Assembly: GCA_028286395.1 (NCBI GenBank)
Contig: JAQBRS010000003.1
Location: 124,001 to 188,000 of the forward strand
Length of the DNA stretch: 64,000 bases
Direction: 5' to 3'
DNA from: Candidatus Saccharimonadota bacterium
GTDB lineage: Bacteria; Patescibacteriota; Saccharimonadia; Saccharimonadales; Saccharimonadaceae
The notes below the pieces were generated by a model. That model had not been told where the DNA came from. It saw only the letters and a program-made list of their open reading frames with translations, and did not search any database. Numbering within the stretch: the stretch's first letter is position 1; every line of letters begins with the position of its first letter. The position numbers and the translations under genes were made by a program. Of this stretch, positions 12,541 through 20,489 are shown piece by piece.

Positions 12541-14229
12541 ATGGATAGGGTTAGGGAAAGAATTCGCGGATTCACGCTTATTGAGCTTATCGTTGTTATT
12601 GCGGTTATCGGAATTCTCGCCACTATTACGGTTGTTGGATTTGGTCGCTATCAAGGTGATACACGCGACGCTCGTCGTTCTTCAAGTGCCAGTGTTATTG
12701 CTGAAGCACTCGAAAAGTACTATGACCTGAACGGAGAGTACCCAAGTTGTGCAGCCCTTACTGCATCAGGAAGTGTCATTTCAACGACCACCCTAAAAGG
12801 CGTCGACACAAATACACTCGTCGCACCTCAGGCGCCAAGTGCTGATATCACAAATGCGAACTCTATTAAATGTACGAGTTCAGGAAGCACGTTGACGACA
12901 AATGGCGTCGACTTCTTCGAATATCAAGGTGATGGTAGCCCTGAATGTGCCGCTTCCGGCTCTTGTTTGAGCTTTACATTGAAATACAAGGACGAGACCG
13001 ATGGCCAAATTAAAACGATTACCAGCCGACGTTCGACAAACATTGCGACATCAGGAAATATCACTAACCTGACAGCAAACTCTACCAGCTTTACCTCGAT
13101 CGGATTGAACTGGAGTCCTGTTATCAATACAGCTACTTACGATATTCAGGTTTCACTGAGCCCGACTTACAATACAAACGGATTCGTGACGATTTTCTCC
13201 TCAACCAGTAGCTCAACGAATACCGCGAGCATCACAGGCCTTAGTGCTTCGACAACGTATTACTTCCTTGTTCGTCCAGTATCTGGTACGGGTGGCAAAG
13301 GCGCGTGGTCTAATCTAGCGACGGCAACGACCAGGTCGCTTGCGACACCCATCGTCACCGCAAACGTCGATAGTGGCACACAGATCACTATTTCATGGGC
13401 ACAGATTACCTTTGCAACGAACTACAATGTTCAGCGAAGCACCACAAGCGGATTCCCTGCAGACGCAACGACCACCTCATCAAGTCAACTACCAACAGGT
13501 GTCACAACACAGACAAAAACATACACAGACGAAGCACCAGGACAGATTCACTGGTACCGCGTTCAAGCAACTGCTAGCTCAGGTACACAAGTCAGTGACT
13601 GGTCAACACCAGTACAAATGAGCCCTGCTGTTGTTCCCGCGGCGTTCACCATCACAAAGACCGACCCTCAGTATAATATTGAACGCGTCACCTCAAACGC
13701 TGTCTGTACCGCGGGTACCGTGCCGTACTACCAATGGTTCAAGAATGGTGTTGCTTGGACAGAAGGAAGTGGTGCAAGCTACCAAACCGTTGACGCCGTC
13801 TTCCCACAATGGAATTACACGCTCAAGGTAACAAACAATACACGTTGCCAAACATCAACCTACCAGTCACCATACGTCGCTGCAAGCAACAGTGTCAGCC
13901 GTACATTATCAGCGCCAACCTCAAGCATCGGAAATACCTCATACCGTACGATGACCTGGGACTGGACATGTCCTTCGGGAACAACATCGTATACGTACTC
14001 GTGGCATATTACAGGAAGTGTCAATAAGTCTGGGTCTGGATCTGGTGGTGCATCAACAAGTGGAAGCGGTGGGTACAGCAACACAGGTGTCGCCTGGGGA
14101 AGTGGTCGTGGATACTTTACGATCAACTGTAGCGCCGGTGGCACATACGGATGGGGCACTATTAGCGATAGCTCGCAGGGTGGATTTGGACCCGGTTGTC
14201 TTCCAATGACAGGAAGCTGCCCACCATAA
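12541..14229 (+). CDS. Type IV pilin-like surface protein with fibronectin type III domains
   Basis: 562 residues. The N-terminus MDRVRERIRGFTLIELIVVIAVIGILA is a textbook class III prepilin signal: cleavage Gly/Phe, Glu at +5, then a hydrophobic helix. A short pilin/pseudopilin head follows (ARRSSSASVIAEALEKYYDLNGEYPS). Two FN3-type beta sandwiches come next (about 180-270 and 270-365, with the SITGLSASTTYYFLV repeat type), then an Ig-like segment and a Ser/Gly-rich end. It is far longer than a shaft pilin, so it is probably a tip or adhesive component of a type IV pilus-like fibre. Many secreted-side cysteines may form disulfides. The next gene follows 20 nt later. Confidence 0.85.
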   Translation: MDRVRERIRGFTLIELIVVIAVIGILATITVVGFGRYQGDTRDARRSSSASVIAEALEKYYDLNGEYPSCAALTASGSVISTTTLKGVDTNTLVAPQAPSADITNANSIKCTSSGSTLTTNGVDFFEYQGDGSPECAASGSCLSFTLKYKDETDGQIKTITSRRSTNIATSGNITNLTANSTSFTSIGLNWSPVINTATYDIQVSLSPTYNTNGFVTIFSSTSSSTNTASITGLSASTTYYFLVRPVSGTGGKGAWSNLATATTRSLATPIVTANVDSGTQITISWAQITFATNYNVQRSTTSGFPADATTTSSSQLPTGVTTQTKTYTDEAPGQIHWYRVQATASSGTQVSDWSTPVQMSPAVVPAAFTITKTDPQYNIERVTSNAVCTAGTVPYYQWFKNGVAWTEGSGASYQTVDAVFPQWNYTLKVTNNTRCQTSTYQSPYVAASNSVSRTLSAPTSSIGNTSYRTMTWDWTCPSGTTSYTYSWHITGSVNKSGSGSGGASTSGSGGYSNTGVAWGSGRGYFTINCSAGGTYGWGTISDSSQGGFGPGCLPMTGSCPP

Positions 14230-15711: not shown

Positions 15712-18700
15712 ATGGATTTTGAGAAGCGATACCAGCAGCTCAACGCTGCACAAAAACAAGCGGTAGATCTTATCGAAGGACCAGTCATGGTAATTGCCGG
15801 ACCTGGAACGGGGAAGACCGAGCTTTTGAGTGTGCGTGTCGCAAATATTCTAAAAAAAACGGACACGTTACCCGAAAATATTCTGTGTTTGACCTTCACG
15901 GAAAGTGGTGCGGCAGCAATGCGTGAACGTCTGATTGGAATTGTCGGAAAAGATGCCTACAAAGTTGCGATTCATACTTTCCACGGATTTGGCACAGAAA
16001 CGATTAATCAAAACCGCGAATTCTTTTATCGTGGTGCGTTATTCCAGCCAGCTGATGATGTCAATCGCTACGAAATTCTGCGCGCGATTTTCGATAGTCT
16101 TGAGTACAAGAACCCACTCGCCAGCACGATGAACGGCGAATATACTCACCAAGCCGATGCAGCCCGAGTTATCTCAGAATTAAAACGAAGTGGTCTAACG
16201 AGCGACGAACTCCTCGCGATTCTTGACGAGAGTGAAGCCGCAATCGATTTTGCCGAGCGTTTGATTGTTCCGCACATTATCGGCACCGTCAGTAAAACGA
16301 CACACGAAAAACTTGGTACTGTCATGCCCGAACTACAAAAACGCGCCGACGAAGCAGCGACGTTATTCGAGGTTTTGCCACTCATTCGAGTTATTACGGA
16401 TGCACTGTCAATTACCCTCGAACAAGCTGCAAATGATCACCCGACGAAACCGGTCACTGCATGGAAAAAGAAGTGGTTTGTGAAAAATGAAAAAGGCGAC
16501 TACATTTTTAAATCCCGCGCGCAATTAGTGAAGCTTCGCGCCCTGGCATACATTTATTTCGAATATCTCAGCCACATGGAGCAAGAGGGTTTGTTCGATT
16601 ACGACGACATGATCTTGCAAGTCGTGCACGCCATGGAAGTCCACGACGACTTGCGATTTAACTTACAGGAAAAGTATCTGTACATTATGGTTGACGAATT
16701 CCAAGATACAAACTTAGCGCAAACACGTATTCTGCATAGTTTGACATCAAACCCGGTGAATGAAGGCAAGCCAAACTTAATGGTGGTTGGTGACGATGAC
16801 CAAGCCATTTATAGTTTCCAGGGTGCTGATATTAGTAATATCCTTGAATTCCAAGAATCATATCCAGCCGTGCAACGTGTCGTCCTGACTGATAACTACC
16901 GATCAGGTGATGACGTAATTTCTCAAGCTCGTTCCGTCATTATTCAGGGTAACGATCGCCTTGAAAGTATCTATGAAGACATCAACAAACAGCTAACGGG
17001 CAACAAGGGAATCTCAGGTGAAGTTGAGCTGTACAAGGCAGAGTCAATTGATCACGAGCGACACTGGATCGTCGATAGTATTGCGACAGAAATTAAAAGC
17101 GGTGTATCACCAAATGATATCGTCGTCTTGACTCGCCAGCATAAAGAAATTCAAAACTTATTACCGTATTTCTATCGCGCAGGCATTGCAGTTAACTACG
17201 AGCGTCAAGAAAATGTCCTCGATCAACCGCCGATTATTGTTATCGAACAACTCAGCCGAGTTATCGTTGCCCTTGGAAAAGGCCAACACGACGTTGCAAA
17301 TTCACTCCTGCCAGAACTACTGGCACATCCTGCATGGAAGATTAGCCCCATTGAGTTATGGCAACTCAGCACCGACGCTTATACCGCCCGAAAGTATTGG
17401 CTCGATATCATGGCGACAACGCCGCGCTTCCTCGATATCCATAGTTGGCTCATCGAACTAGCAGCACTATCTCAGTACACACCACTTGAACCAATGATCG
17501 ATCGTATGATTGGCAAAGTTGAAGATACGGTTGTTCCAGCAAAAAATAGTCCGTTCTACGAATACTTCTTCGGACAAGAACGACTGGACGAGAATCCTTC
17601 TGAATATTTAGACTTCCTCGCTGCACTCCGCACCATTCGTTCGAAACTACGCGAATACCATAATAAAGACACCCTGACTGTTGAATCGTATCTTAGCTTT
17701 GTTGAGTTACATCGTCGCATCGGTACGACGCTATCTGTCTCGCACCTCGCTGATACACAATCAATCGCTGTAAATCTTATGACCGCTCATAAATCGAAGG
17801 GGCTTGAATTCGAAACTGTCTACATCTTTAACAGCGTCGATAATATCTGGGGCGAAAAGGCGAGGGGCATGAGTCGCAACATTGGCTATCCTGAAAACCT
17901 TCCGCTTGCCAATGCGGGTGATTCTGCTGATGAGCGTTTGCGTCTTTTCTACGTTGCGATGACCCGCGCCAAAACAAAACTACGCATTAGTTTCAGTGCA
18001 TCAGACGACAAAGACAAACAAACACTCATCGCTAGCTTCCTCAGTGATGCCGACCTCGAACCCATCTCGATTGCGCCGTCAAATGAAGCAGAACGTGTGA
18101 CATCGGCTGAACTTGCCTGGTACGAACCACTCACCACGCCAACGGCCGACCTTATAGAGCTTTTAAAGCCTTCCCTCGAGAATTACAAGCTGAGTGCAAC
18201 ACACTTGAACAATTTCCTCGATGTCACGCATGGTGGGCCTCAGATGTTCTTACTCGGTAATCTTTTGCACTTCCCGTCGACTAAATCGCCAGCGGCATCG
18301 TACGGAACTGCGATTCATGCCACATTACAACAAGCTCATGTCCATGTCGTTGCGACAGGCGAGAAAAAGCCACTCGAAGATATTCTTCACGATTTCGAAA
18401 CAAACCTGACAAACGAGCGTTTGAATCCACTCGATTATGCCACCTATCACCAAAAGGGAAGCGAGCAGCTCCAAGTATTTCTGTCGCAAAAATACGATAC
18501 ATTTACCAACACGCAAAAGACGGAGCTCAACTTTTCCAGCCAGGAAGTCTACCTCGACGATGCACACTTAACAGGCATGATCGACGTTGCCGACATTGAT
18601 AAGGCGGAAAAGACCATGATTGTCACCGATTACAAGACAGGGAAATCAGTTGCCAACTGGAAAACAACCGCCGAATACGACAAGATTAAACTCCACAAAT

Positions 18701-18987
18701 ACCGCCAACAATTATTATTCTACAAACTGCTCGTTGAACGATCCCGCGATTATAGCAACTACACCGTTATCGAAGGCAGGCTCGAATTTATTGAGCCAAA
18801 CCGTTCGAATGAAATTAGCACCCTTGATATGCCGTTCGATAAGGAGGAGCTGGCGCGTTTTGCGGAGCTTATAGGTAAGGTCTGGAAGCATATTATCGCA
18901 CTCGATCTGCCCGATACGTCGAGCTACGAACCAACCTATCGCGGGCTCCTTGATTTCGAGCAAGACCTCCTCGACGAACGTATCTAA
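15712..18987 (+). CDS. UvrD/PcrA-type helicase fused to a PD-(D/E)xK nuclease
   Basis: 1091 residues. The N-terminal two thirds is superfamily 1A helicase: Walker A AGPGTGKTE (29-37), motif II VDEFQDTN, VVGDDDQAIYSFQGAD, DNYRSG, LMTAHKSKGLEFETVY, and motif VI LFYVAMTRAK. The last 250 residues form a RecB/Cas4-like nuclease domain (ATHLNNFLD, then ASYGTAIHATLQQAH, then LTGMIDVADID with MIVTDYKTGK supplying the D-x(n)-D-Y-K motif). The layout matches AddA/AdnB-type recombination enzymes more than plain UvrD, so it may resect double-strand breaks or act alone in repair. ATG 15712 has TATAAT 8 nt upstream. It is followed by a hairpin and the ncRNA promoter. Confidence 0.9.
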   Translation: MDFEKRYQQLNAAQKQAVDLIEGPVMVIAGPGTGKTELLSVRVANILKKTDTLPENILCLTFTESGAAAMRERLIGIVGKDAYKVAIHTFHGFGTETINQNREFFYRGALFQPADDVNRYEILRAIFDSLEYKNPLASTMNGEYTHQADAARVISELKRSGLTSDELLAILDESEAAIDFAERLIVPHIIGTVSKTTHEKLGTVMPELQKRADEAATLFEVLPLIRVITDALSITLEQAANDHPTKPVTAWKKKWFVKNEKGDYIFKSRAQLVKLRALAYIYFEYLSHMEQEGLFDYDDMILQVVHAMEVHDDLRFNLQEKYLYIMVDEFQDTNLAQTRILHSLTSNPVNEGKPNLMVVGDDDQAIYSFQGADISNILEFQESYPAVQRVVLTDNYRSGDDVISQARSVIIQGNDRLESIYEDINKQLTGNKGISGEVELYKAESIDHERHWIVDSIATEIKSGVSPNDIVVLTRQHKEIQNLLPYFYRAGIAVNYERQENVLDQPPIIVIEQLSRVIVALGKGQHDVANSLLPELLAHPAWKISPIELWQLSTDAYTARKYWLDIMATTPRFLDIHSWLIELAALSQYTPLEPMIDRMIGKVEDTVVPAKNSPFYEYFFGQERLDENPSEYLDFLAALRTIRSKLREYHNKDTLTVESYLSFVELHRRIGTTLSVSHLADTQSIAVNLMTAHKSKGLEFETVYIFNSVDNIWGEKARGMSRNIGYPENLPLANAGDSADERLRLFYVAMTRAKTKLRISFSASDDKDKQTLIASFLSDADLEPISIAPSNEAERVTSAELAWYEPLTTPTADLIELLKPSLENYKLSATHLNNFLDVTHGGPQMFLLGNLLHFPSTKSPAASYGTAIHATLQQAHVHVVATGEKKPLEDILHDFETNLTNERLNPLDYATYHQKGSEQLQVFLSQKYDTFTNTQKTELNFSSQEVYLDDAHLTGMIDVADIDKAEKTMIVTDYKTGKSVANWKTTAEYDKIKLHKYRQQLLFYKLLVERSRDYSNYTVIEGRLEFIEPNRSNEISTLDMPFDKEELARFAELIGKVWKHIIALDLPDTSSYEPTYRGLLDFEQDLLDERI

Positions 18988-18989
18988 TA

Positions 18990-19019
18990 ACCCCTTAGAG
19001 CTATTGACTATAAGGGGTG
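18990..19019 (+). terminator. Hairpin after the UvrD-like gene
   Basis: ACCCCTTA (18990-18997) pairs with TAAGGGGT (19011-19018); its loop contains the -35 box TTGACT (19004-19009) of the following ncRNA. No T-run, so termination strength is uncertain. Confidence 0.5.
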
Positions 19020-19033
19020 AAAAGTGCTATAAT
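19004..19033 (+). promoter_or_regulatory. Promoter of the structured ncRNA
   Basis: TTGACT (19004-19009), 18 nt, TATAAT (19028-19033). The predicted start is near 19040. No start codon with a usable frame follows. Confidence 0.75.
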
Positions 19034-19039
19034 AGGTAT

Positions 19040-19506
19040 TAGCACCGATTGAGGACGTGAGACATTGACACCAAATAATACAGATTGGCGTCCATATCTC
19101 ACGTCCCGTCAGTTGCACATTGACAGAGATAGTGAAATAGTTCCGGCAGCTGGCGCGCGTTGCCCTCCGGAACCGTGGTCCCGCCCCTCCCTTTCAGTCA
19201 GATGTCAGATGTCCTGACCCATCTGTTTCCTGATCGATCGAATACACCCCTCAACCGACCTTGCAGAATACTGTGGGGGCGGCTTCCGAAGCGGTGCGGT
19301 AGGGGCGGGACCGCACAAAGCGTCCATCCATCCAAAAAGCTCGTGCGAAAGCGGCACTCAACACGTCGCTGACGAACGCTGGGCAGAAGCCCAAGAGCTG
19401 ACACCGGCAAGAACTGACTTAGATCAGGAGCGGATGGGGCAAGAAATCACTATCTCTGTCCGCTCAACCTATCCATAACTCGTTTATGAGTAGATTGAGC
19501 GTTTTT
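19040..19506 (+). ncRNA. Large structured non-coding RNA candidate, family unknown
   Basis: About 465 nt between the promoter and an intrinsic terminator, without a credible ORF. A 10-bp 5' hairpin (GGACGTGAGA 19053-19062 with TCTCACGTCC 19097-19106) is followed by a domain closed by a perfect 14-bp helix (19122-19135 with 19447-19460). Inside: GTTCCGG/CCGGAAC (19140-19146/19167-19173); a 12-bp long-range helix GGTCCCGCCCCT/AGGGGCGGGACC (19177-19188/19301-19312); AGCTC/GAGCT (19338-19342/19395-19399) enclosing small hairpins including CGTC-GCT-GACG and GGGC-AGAA-GCCC; and CCATCC/GGATGG (19324-19329/19432-19437). It does not show the conserved cores of RNase P RNA, tmRNA or SRP RNA. Nested long helices and two independent domains argue for a real RNA. 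Confidence 0.7.
19461..19506 (+). terminator. Intrinsic terminator of the ncRNA
   Basis: CGCTCAA (19461-19467) pairs with TTGAGCG (19495-19501), with an inner CATAA/TTATG stem, followed by five T. Confidence 0.85.
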
Positions 19507-19541: not shown

Positions 19542-20489
19542 ATGAAAAACTTCTGGCAAGACCTCCCAAAACCATTCTTCGTCTTGGCTCCTATGGAAGC
19601 CGTCACTGACGTTGTCTTTCGCCATGTCGTCGATGCGGCCGGTGGACCGGATGTCTACTTTACCGAATTCGCGAACGCGGCTAGTTATTTTAGCGAAAAA
19701 GGCCGTGCGAGTACTCGTGGTCGACTTGCATTTACTGACGACGAGCAGCCAATGGTCGCTCAAATTTGGGGAACGAATCCTGAATATTTTGAATTTATGG
19801 CAAACGGCCTTGCTGAACAAGGATTTGCGGGTATAGACATTAATATGGGCTGTCCTGCTAAAGATGTCGTCAAGATAGGGGCGGGAAGTGGCCTTATTCG
19901 CGATCCAGAGCGCGCTGCAGAGCTGATTGCTGCCGCAAAGAAATCTGGTCTACCTGTCAGCGTAAAAACTCGTCTGGGTGATCTAAAGACGGAGGAGTGG
20001 ACCGCGTGGCTCACTCATATCTTGAAGCAAGACGTCGTGAACCTCACGATTCATTTACGTACTCGAAAAGAGATGAGCAAAGTCCCTGCGCATTTCGAAC
20101 TGATTCATGAAATTAAAAAACTACGTGACCAGATTGCGCCACAAACGCTATTGACCATCAACGGTGATATCCGTGATCGCGAGCACGGTCTTGAACTCGT
20201 CAAAGAATACGGCGTTGATGGCGTCATGATTGGTCGTGGCGTCTTCAGTGATCCATTTGCTTTTGCGAAAGAAAAGAAGGAACGGACACGCGAAGAATTA
20301 ATCGACCTTCTGAATATGCAGCTTGATTTATTTGATAAGTACTCAGCAGAATTAGAACCACGAAAATTCGATCCTTTAAAACGATTCTTTAAGATTTACG
20401 TACGAAACTTCGAAGGAGCATCTGAGCTTCGTGATAAAATGATGCATACAAAAAGCACCGATGAGGTGCGTGAATTACTAGGAAAATAA
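19542..20489 (+). CDS. dus: tRNA-dihydrouridine synthase
   Basis: 315 residues, FMN-dependent Dus family, reducing uridine to dihydrouridine in the tRNA D-loop. TIM-barrel signatures: [15 protein letters not shown] at the N-terminus, [14 protein letters not shown] (about 100-113) with the catalytic Cys, [18 protein letters not shown] and [14 protein letters not shown] for FMN phosphate binding. A helical C-terminal domain follows. The catalytic Cys sits in the usual xxGCPxK context. Which uridine is modified cannot be read. It stands alone between the ncRNA terminator and a strong hairpin. Confidence 0.92.

Follow-up and report, generated by a model that had tools for sequence, protein, structure and literature searches.

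A Proposed Single-Copy Unit of rRNA Style at the uvrD-dus Locus of a Saccharibacteria Family, Probably Joining a Stable RNA to an Exchangeable Small-Protein Cassette

Introduction

tmRNA and SgrS are dual-function RNAs, being both structured and coding. Saccharibacteria, the organisms considered here, are tiny epibiont-type bacteria with very small genomes. In a 64,000-nucleotide (nt) stretch of one such genome (contig JAQBRS010000003.1, positions 124,001 to 188,000; hereafter the window), the segment between the gene for a UvrD-like helicase and dus holds the element studied in this work, referred to as the unit (window positions 19004 to 19506). Like tmRNA and SgrS, the unit is a structured RNA whose relatives also carry a short open reading frame (ORF), and many copies have tRNA-like parts. 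The ORF differs in having its own Shine-Dalgarno (SD) sequence and start, in its length of 40–70 codons, and in encoding several unrelated protein families. The tRNA-like elements are internal and are not built from the RNA ends.

A second comparison is with the GOLLD and ROOL RNAs, which are large and ornate and consist of a constant part and a variable one, the latter with tRNAs inside it or close by. The unit shares these features. GOLLD carries its tRNAs in a linker (PMC12286853). The unit differs in its sequence and structure, which match no Rfam model, in its fixed chromosomal locus, in its encoded small proteins, and in being conserved at its ends only.

The closest likeness is to the leader and trailer of the 16S rRNA operon (rrnTAC, boxA antitermination; PMC10250234). 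The E. coli boxA brings in the antitermination complex, and 30S formation cannot proceed without the leader-trailer helix, which also overlaps with the site cut by RNase III (PMC10250234). The unit likewise has a boxA-like site directly before the 5′ strand of a trailer-pairing helix, and the 16S leader of its own genus has nearly the same layout and letters. In contrast to the operon, the unit encloses no rRNA but a hypervariable fold plus a small ORF, and its helix is about 14 bp. A literature search found no published description of the unit. We propose that, in one Saccharibacteria family, it is probably a transcription unit of rRNA style, present in single copy at a fixed place between uvrD and dus, that joins a stable RNA to an exchangeable small-protein cassette.

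The Unit in the Window

An earlier note on this DNA had described a large structured non-coding RNA of no recognised family between a UvrD-like helicase and dus. The observation stands because its elements lie where the note placed them, namely the promoter, the 10-bp hairpin, the 14-bp closing helix, the 12-bp long-range helix and the five-T terminator, because the folding stability is far above that of shuffled sequences, and because no Rfam family is found. The segment 19040–19506 has a minimum free energy of −195.5 kcal/mol versus −144.6 ± 6.7 for dinucleotide shuffles (z −7.6, 0/100), and the closed domain, 19120–19462, folds with a z of −5.7. The structured element is thus genuine and is bounded by a promoter and a terminator. 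Its parts, with window positions, are as follows.

19004..19033, + strand: sigma-70-type promoter TTGACT-N18-TATAAT, read from the sequence (−35 at 19004–19009, 18-nt spacer, −10 at 19028–19033)
19053..19106, + strand: 5′ leader hairpin of 10 bp in a boxB-like position (arms 19053–19062/19097–19106), absent by deletion from the sister genome G015
19114..19125, + strand: boxA-like sequence TGCACATTGACA, agreeing with E. coli boxA TGCTCTTTAACA at 9 of 12 positions; CTTTGACA occupies the corresponding place in the 16S leader of the genus
19122..19135, + strand: leader strand of the closing helix, GACAGAGATAGTGA, 14 bp with 19447–19460
19140..19330, + strand: strongly folded variable region (hairpin 19140–19173, 12-bp helix 19177–19188/19301–19312, inner hairpins), 93% identical to G015
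19333..19401, + strand: ORF remnant ending in QKARAKAALNTSLTNAGQKPKS and a stop, without an SD or usable start
19339..19424, + strand: cassette with no alignment to G015, whose counterpart is about 220 nt with an intact zinc-type ORF
19447..19460, + strand: trailer strand of the closing helix, TCACTATCTCTGTC, pairing with 19122–19135
19461..19506, + strand: terminator hairpin and T run (CGCTCAA..TTGAGCG, inner CATAA..TTATG; TTTTT at 19502–19506)
15712..18987, + strand: upstream neighbour, UvrD-like helicase of 1091 amino acids (aa), with synteny in relatives
19542..20489, + strand: downstream neighbour, dus, 315 aa

Further upstream, at 12541–14229, the window has a 562-aa ORF whose N-terminus, by eye, looks like that of a type IV pilin, with apparent fibronectin-type repeats after it.

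A search of the 4227 families of Rfam 15 with cmscan gave nothing at the gathering cut-offs in or near the unit, and the matches at E ≤ 10 amounted to eukaryotic noise below threshold. No covariance-model match to GOLLD, ROOL, OLE, raiA or other Rfam models was obtained for the window unit at either level, and the Rfam results exclude a divergent RNase P RNA, tmRNA or SRP RNA, in keeping with the note. The RNase P RNA of the genome is encoded on another contig (G000:C4:16888-17222, E 1.6e-82), neither ARAGORN nor Rfam found a tmRNA in the window unit or in the homologous loci scanned, and the window unit has no Rfam rRNA match.

Homologous Units Share a Frame at One Locus

Searching by DNA similarity, as the note had suggested, did recover a relative, but only one clear one in 60 genomes, the same-genus G015, and in just three pieces (query positions 1–67, 114–335 at 93% identity, and 422–503). 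More distant homologues were located by synteny, with the neighbouring dus as anchor. The interval between uvrD and dus is 557–842 nt in 15 of 17 same-genus genomes, and these 15, which are the ones with dus, all contain the unit. Their common frame consists of the promoter (TTGAC / GCTATAAT, placed as in the window), the leader hairpin, (T)TGACAGAGATAGTG or a close variant, a GC-rich interior, CACTATCTCTGTC or a compensating variant, and the terminator. A search with the motif TTNACAGAGATAGYR alone gave a single match to the unit per genome in the genus and, by chance, one match inside a ribosomal protein gene.

We then surveyed the family in 151 genomes, 142 of which have dus. A unit with the same frame and drifted letters, with arms such as GACAGGAATAGTG/CACTATTCCTGTC and GACAGGCACAGTGA/TCACTGTGCCTGTC, is found in many of about 60 other genera, and in many Saccharibacteria several hundred to more than 1000 bases are kept for it between uvrD and dus. 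At least one genome has two tandem units (L031). In other families of the order, dus is not beside uvrD, and no such unit was seen upstream of dus. The location between the two genes is kept in many relatives, and the occurrence in Patescibacteria is borne out, the named matches being Candidatus Saccharibacteria. An extra ORF of 70–105 aa lies downstream of the RNA unit, immediately upstream of dus, at L026, L056, L057, L060, L184 and L187.

The Closing Helix Resembles the 16S Leader-Trailer Helix and Covaries

The 16S gene of the window genome is not in the bin, and seven genomes of the same genus were used for the comparison. Their 16S leader reads CTTTGACAATTTAGTAGTGCAAA or one-letter variants, and their trailer TTTGCACTACTAAGTTGT; the boxA-like site runs into the leader-trailer helix. 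In the unit, CTTTGACAGAGATAGTGAAA..TTTCACTATCTCTGTC has the same arrangement. Across 21 units the median match to boxA is 8/12, a level that only 0.3% of background 12-mers reach or exceed, and the L060 unit holds the exact E. coli boxA (12/12).

In a composite alignment of the helix arms from the 21 units, in which the 3′ arms were located by complementarity, 93.9% of cells are paired and 11 of 14 base pairs show changes on both sides. The computed covariation score is 0.415 versus 0.174 ± 0.019 for shuffled alignments (0/500), and sliding the partner strand yields at most 0.137. The 3′ arm always lies immediately before the terminator hairpin, and several independent pair types occur. Among the helices that the note listed, then, the closing helix holds up across genera through compensating changes. 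The inner helices, unlike it, are re-invented from species to species and are not conserved beyond the nearest relative.

The Small ORF

An ORF of 40–70 codons, usually one per unit, is present in 56 curated loci. Its translation signals are strong: the median SD energy in the 56 loci is −14.7 kcal/mol versus −7.2 for 708 ordinary genes of genome G012. The SD often lies inside a small hairpin (CACC..GGTG), with at least 5 bp in 32 of the 56 versus 14.6 ± 3.3 in shuffled sequences. The word most enriched within payloads, as we call the segment between the constant flanks, is GGAGGTGA (11/25, 0.2 expected). When the SD-hairpin pattern was searched for in 345 genomes, five of seven matches fell at the uvrD-dus locus; the remaining two are chance matches, one within a Fic-like ORF and one upstream of an ATP-synthase-like gene. 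The same-genus 16S 3′ end reads GGATTACCTCC in place of the canonical GGATCACCTCC (L112–L118).

Non-ATG starts in the 56 loci comprise 12 TTG, 12 GTG, 2 ATT, 1 ATC and 1 ACG. The ORFs of L009, L010 and L011 have the apparent starts ATC, ACG and ATT where the spacing of their relatives has ATG or TTG. Codon usage is GC-rich relative to the neighbours and to rpoB, rpsL and atpA/D: the genus ORFs have a third-position GC (GC3) of 0.70 and an AAG fraction of 0.83, against about 0.5 and 0.35–0.52 in ordinary genes. The lack of this bias in rpoB, rpsL and atpA/D weakens high expression as its source.

The window copy is a homologous unit in which the ORF start has been lost and the frame and fold have been kept. 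In G015 an intact zinc-type ORF of 63 codons lies between the inner strands CCATCC and GGATGG; the window counterpart at 19339–19424 is shorter and different, with an ORF tail only and no SD or start. By eye, the remnant resembles the end of another small-protein family, whose C-terminal pattern is ..N.SL..AGQ..K; a BLASTP comparison with a family II protein was not significant with this very short query. The missing coding part explains why the unit looked purely non-coding in the earlier note. The structured RNA it described is genuine, but its relatives, with their strong-SD ORFs and often tRNA-like elements, do not fit a purely non-coding RNA of fixed fold.

The encoded proteins form several unrelated groups: the three-helix families I and III, a family ending in ..SxxxxGQ.., and cysteine-rich zinc-type proteins. 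Families I and III share the three-helix layout in confident predicted models (pLDDT 90.5 and 89.2). Ten representative proteins had no match above curated cut-offs in Pfam, PHROG or NCBIfam, and PDB searches by sequence and by fold returned nothing significant for the unit proteins. Family I occurs in 14 of the 151 genomes, in single copy, 12 directly upstream of dus and two where dus is near a contig end; among 84,980 species it is found at eight loci, all Saccharibacteria or Patescibacteria and all upstream of dus. Family III has six real matches in 295 genomes, one to a genome and every one at the uvrD-dus locus. A phage origin of family I was rejected, as IMG/VR contigs contain no relative. 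The cysteine-rich small proteins of L031 and L079 have a hydrophobic, signal-peptide-like N-terminus.

The Folded Part and the tRNA-Like Elements

The structure of the payload is concentrated before the ORF. Pre-ORF segments have z < −3 in 19/19 units tested (median −7.5), versus 0/19 for the ORF segments (median −0.5). tRNA-like elements are present in about twenty loci (L022, L025, L026, L028, L035, L036, L039–L041, L055–L057, L060, L074–L076, L080, L083, L180 and L189). Their acceptor and T arms are good, but the anticodon loop is often 6 or 8 nt long or the anticodon rare; several approximate tRNA-Pro bodies whose anticodon loops are abnormal (aagg, ctta, gcaa, agag, tt, ac) or whose anticodons have A34. 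A hairpin loop AANGNY, usually closed by C-G as in GACAATGGCGTC and GACAACGATGTC, recurs in 17 of 62 uvrD-dus intergenic segments versus 7.4 in shuffles.

Interpretation

We suggest the following sequence of events. Transcription would start at the strong promoter, and the leader would present the hairpin and the boxA-like site. Nus-factor antitermination may then carry RNA polymerase through the GC-rich hairpins in the absence of coupled translation. The leader and trailer strands would close the whole RNA just before the intrinsic terminator, as in 16S rRNA operons, and the closed RNA would be compact and either nuclease-resistant or trimmed by RNase III. Ribosomes would enter at the very strong, partly hairpin-held SD to make one small protein. 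The payload, that is, the folded part, the optional tRNA-like element and the ORF, would be swapped as a cassette between the constant flanks.

Several points weigh against the proposal of an rRNA-style unit with an exchangeable cassette. The ORF is not intact in the window copy, and several genomes lack the unit, the uvrD-dus gap being 2–66 nt (L029, L082, L086, L192). boxA is a short motif, matched at only 4/12 in L062, L068 and L079. The small ORFs were chosen by eye from ranked candidates. Locating the 3′ arms by complementarity biases the alignment towards pairing, and relatedness is uncorrected; the slide control and the constant position of the arm before the terminator speak against this bias as the whole effect.

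The main competing explanation, which we hold to be possible though well behind, is a small-protein mRNA with an elaborate 5′ untranslated region. The RNA would then have no function in itself; its structure, its boxA and the closing helix would just raise stability and output. The strong SD and intact ORF of the 56 loci fit this, as do minimal units that are barely more than helix and ORF (L037, L068, L069). The folded pre-ORF part, however, is retained in all 19 units tested despite complete sequence change, tRNA-like elements are present, and the window copy has kept frame and fold though its ORF start is lost.

It is unlikely that the unit is a structural RNA of the GOLLD or ROOL kind, with tRNA-like parts and ORFs as passengers on a scaffold. 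Size, ornateness, the lack of an Rfam match and a variable part with tRNA-like elements agree with such an RNA, GOLLD having the same division and linker tRNAs (PMC12286853). Against it, the GOLLD and ROOL models do not match, the conserved core is limited to the ends, nearly all units have a strong-SD ORF, and the locus is chromosomal and fixed rather than phage-borne, family I being absent from IMG/VR contigs.

Slightly less likely still is that the locus is a hot spot of recombination or insertion where foreign DNA accumulates, its resemblance to an RNA being a by-product. The GC-rich payload with its GC3 and AAG bias would suit it, as would the differing cassettes of the two closest genomes, the window and G015. 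It is at odds with a frame that is constant and whose helix changes in a compensatory way, with the single ORF of each unit, and with closed families seen at this locus only. Adaptation to actinobacterial host ribosomes is very improbable: the SD GGAGGTGAT complements GGATCACCTCC better than the own-genus 16S end GGATTACCTCC, GGAGGTGA is strongly preferred and codons are GC-rich, but GTGA also pairs with upstream TCAC in the SD hairpin, which explains the G and weakens the case, either extended SD form is rare in ordinary genes (1 vs 1 of 708), and there is no sign of RNA export.

Returning to the rRNA-style unit, the data suggest an undescribed kind of fast-evolving RNA/protein locus. As to its role, our best guess, held with low confidence, is conflict or recognition involving phages or hosts, because the turnover of alleles in a constant frame is what is expected of such systems. 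It is tempting to go further, to a tentative idea that is doubtful as it stands: that such loci form a new, polymorphic class of dual-function RNA. An rRNA-mimicking unit would exchange its cassettes at a single fixed place in the chromosome, and its folded RNA, tRNA-like domains and species-specific small protein would act jointly in conflict or recognition, against phages or towards hosts.

The unit appears to borrow the transcription and processing logic of rRNA for another use. Its cargo is replaced completely between closely related species, and the frame is preserved through compensatory mutations. If this reading is true, the unit would stand for a class of RNA not described before, along with new families of small proteins, and it would provide a ready marker of cassette exchange in uncultured epibionts.
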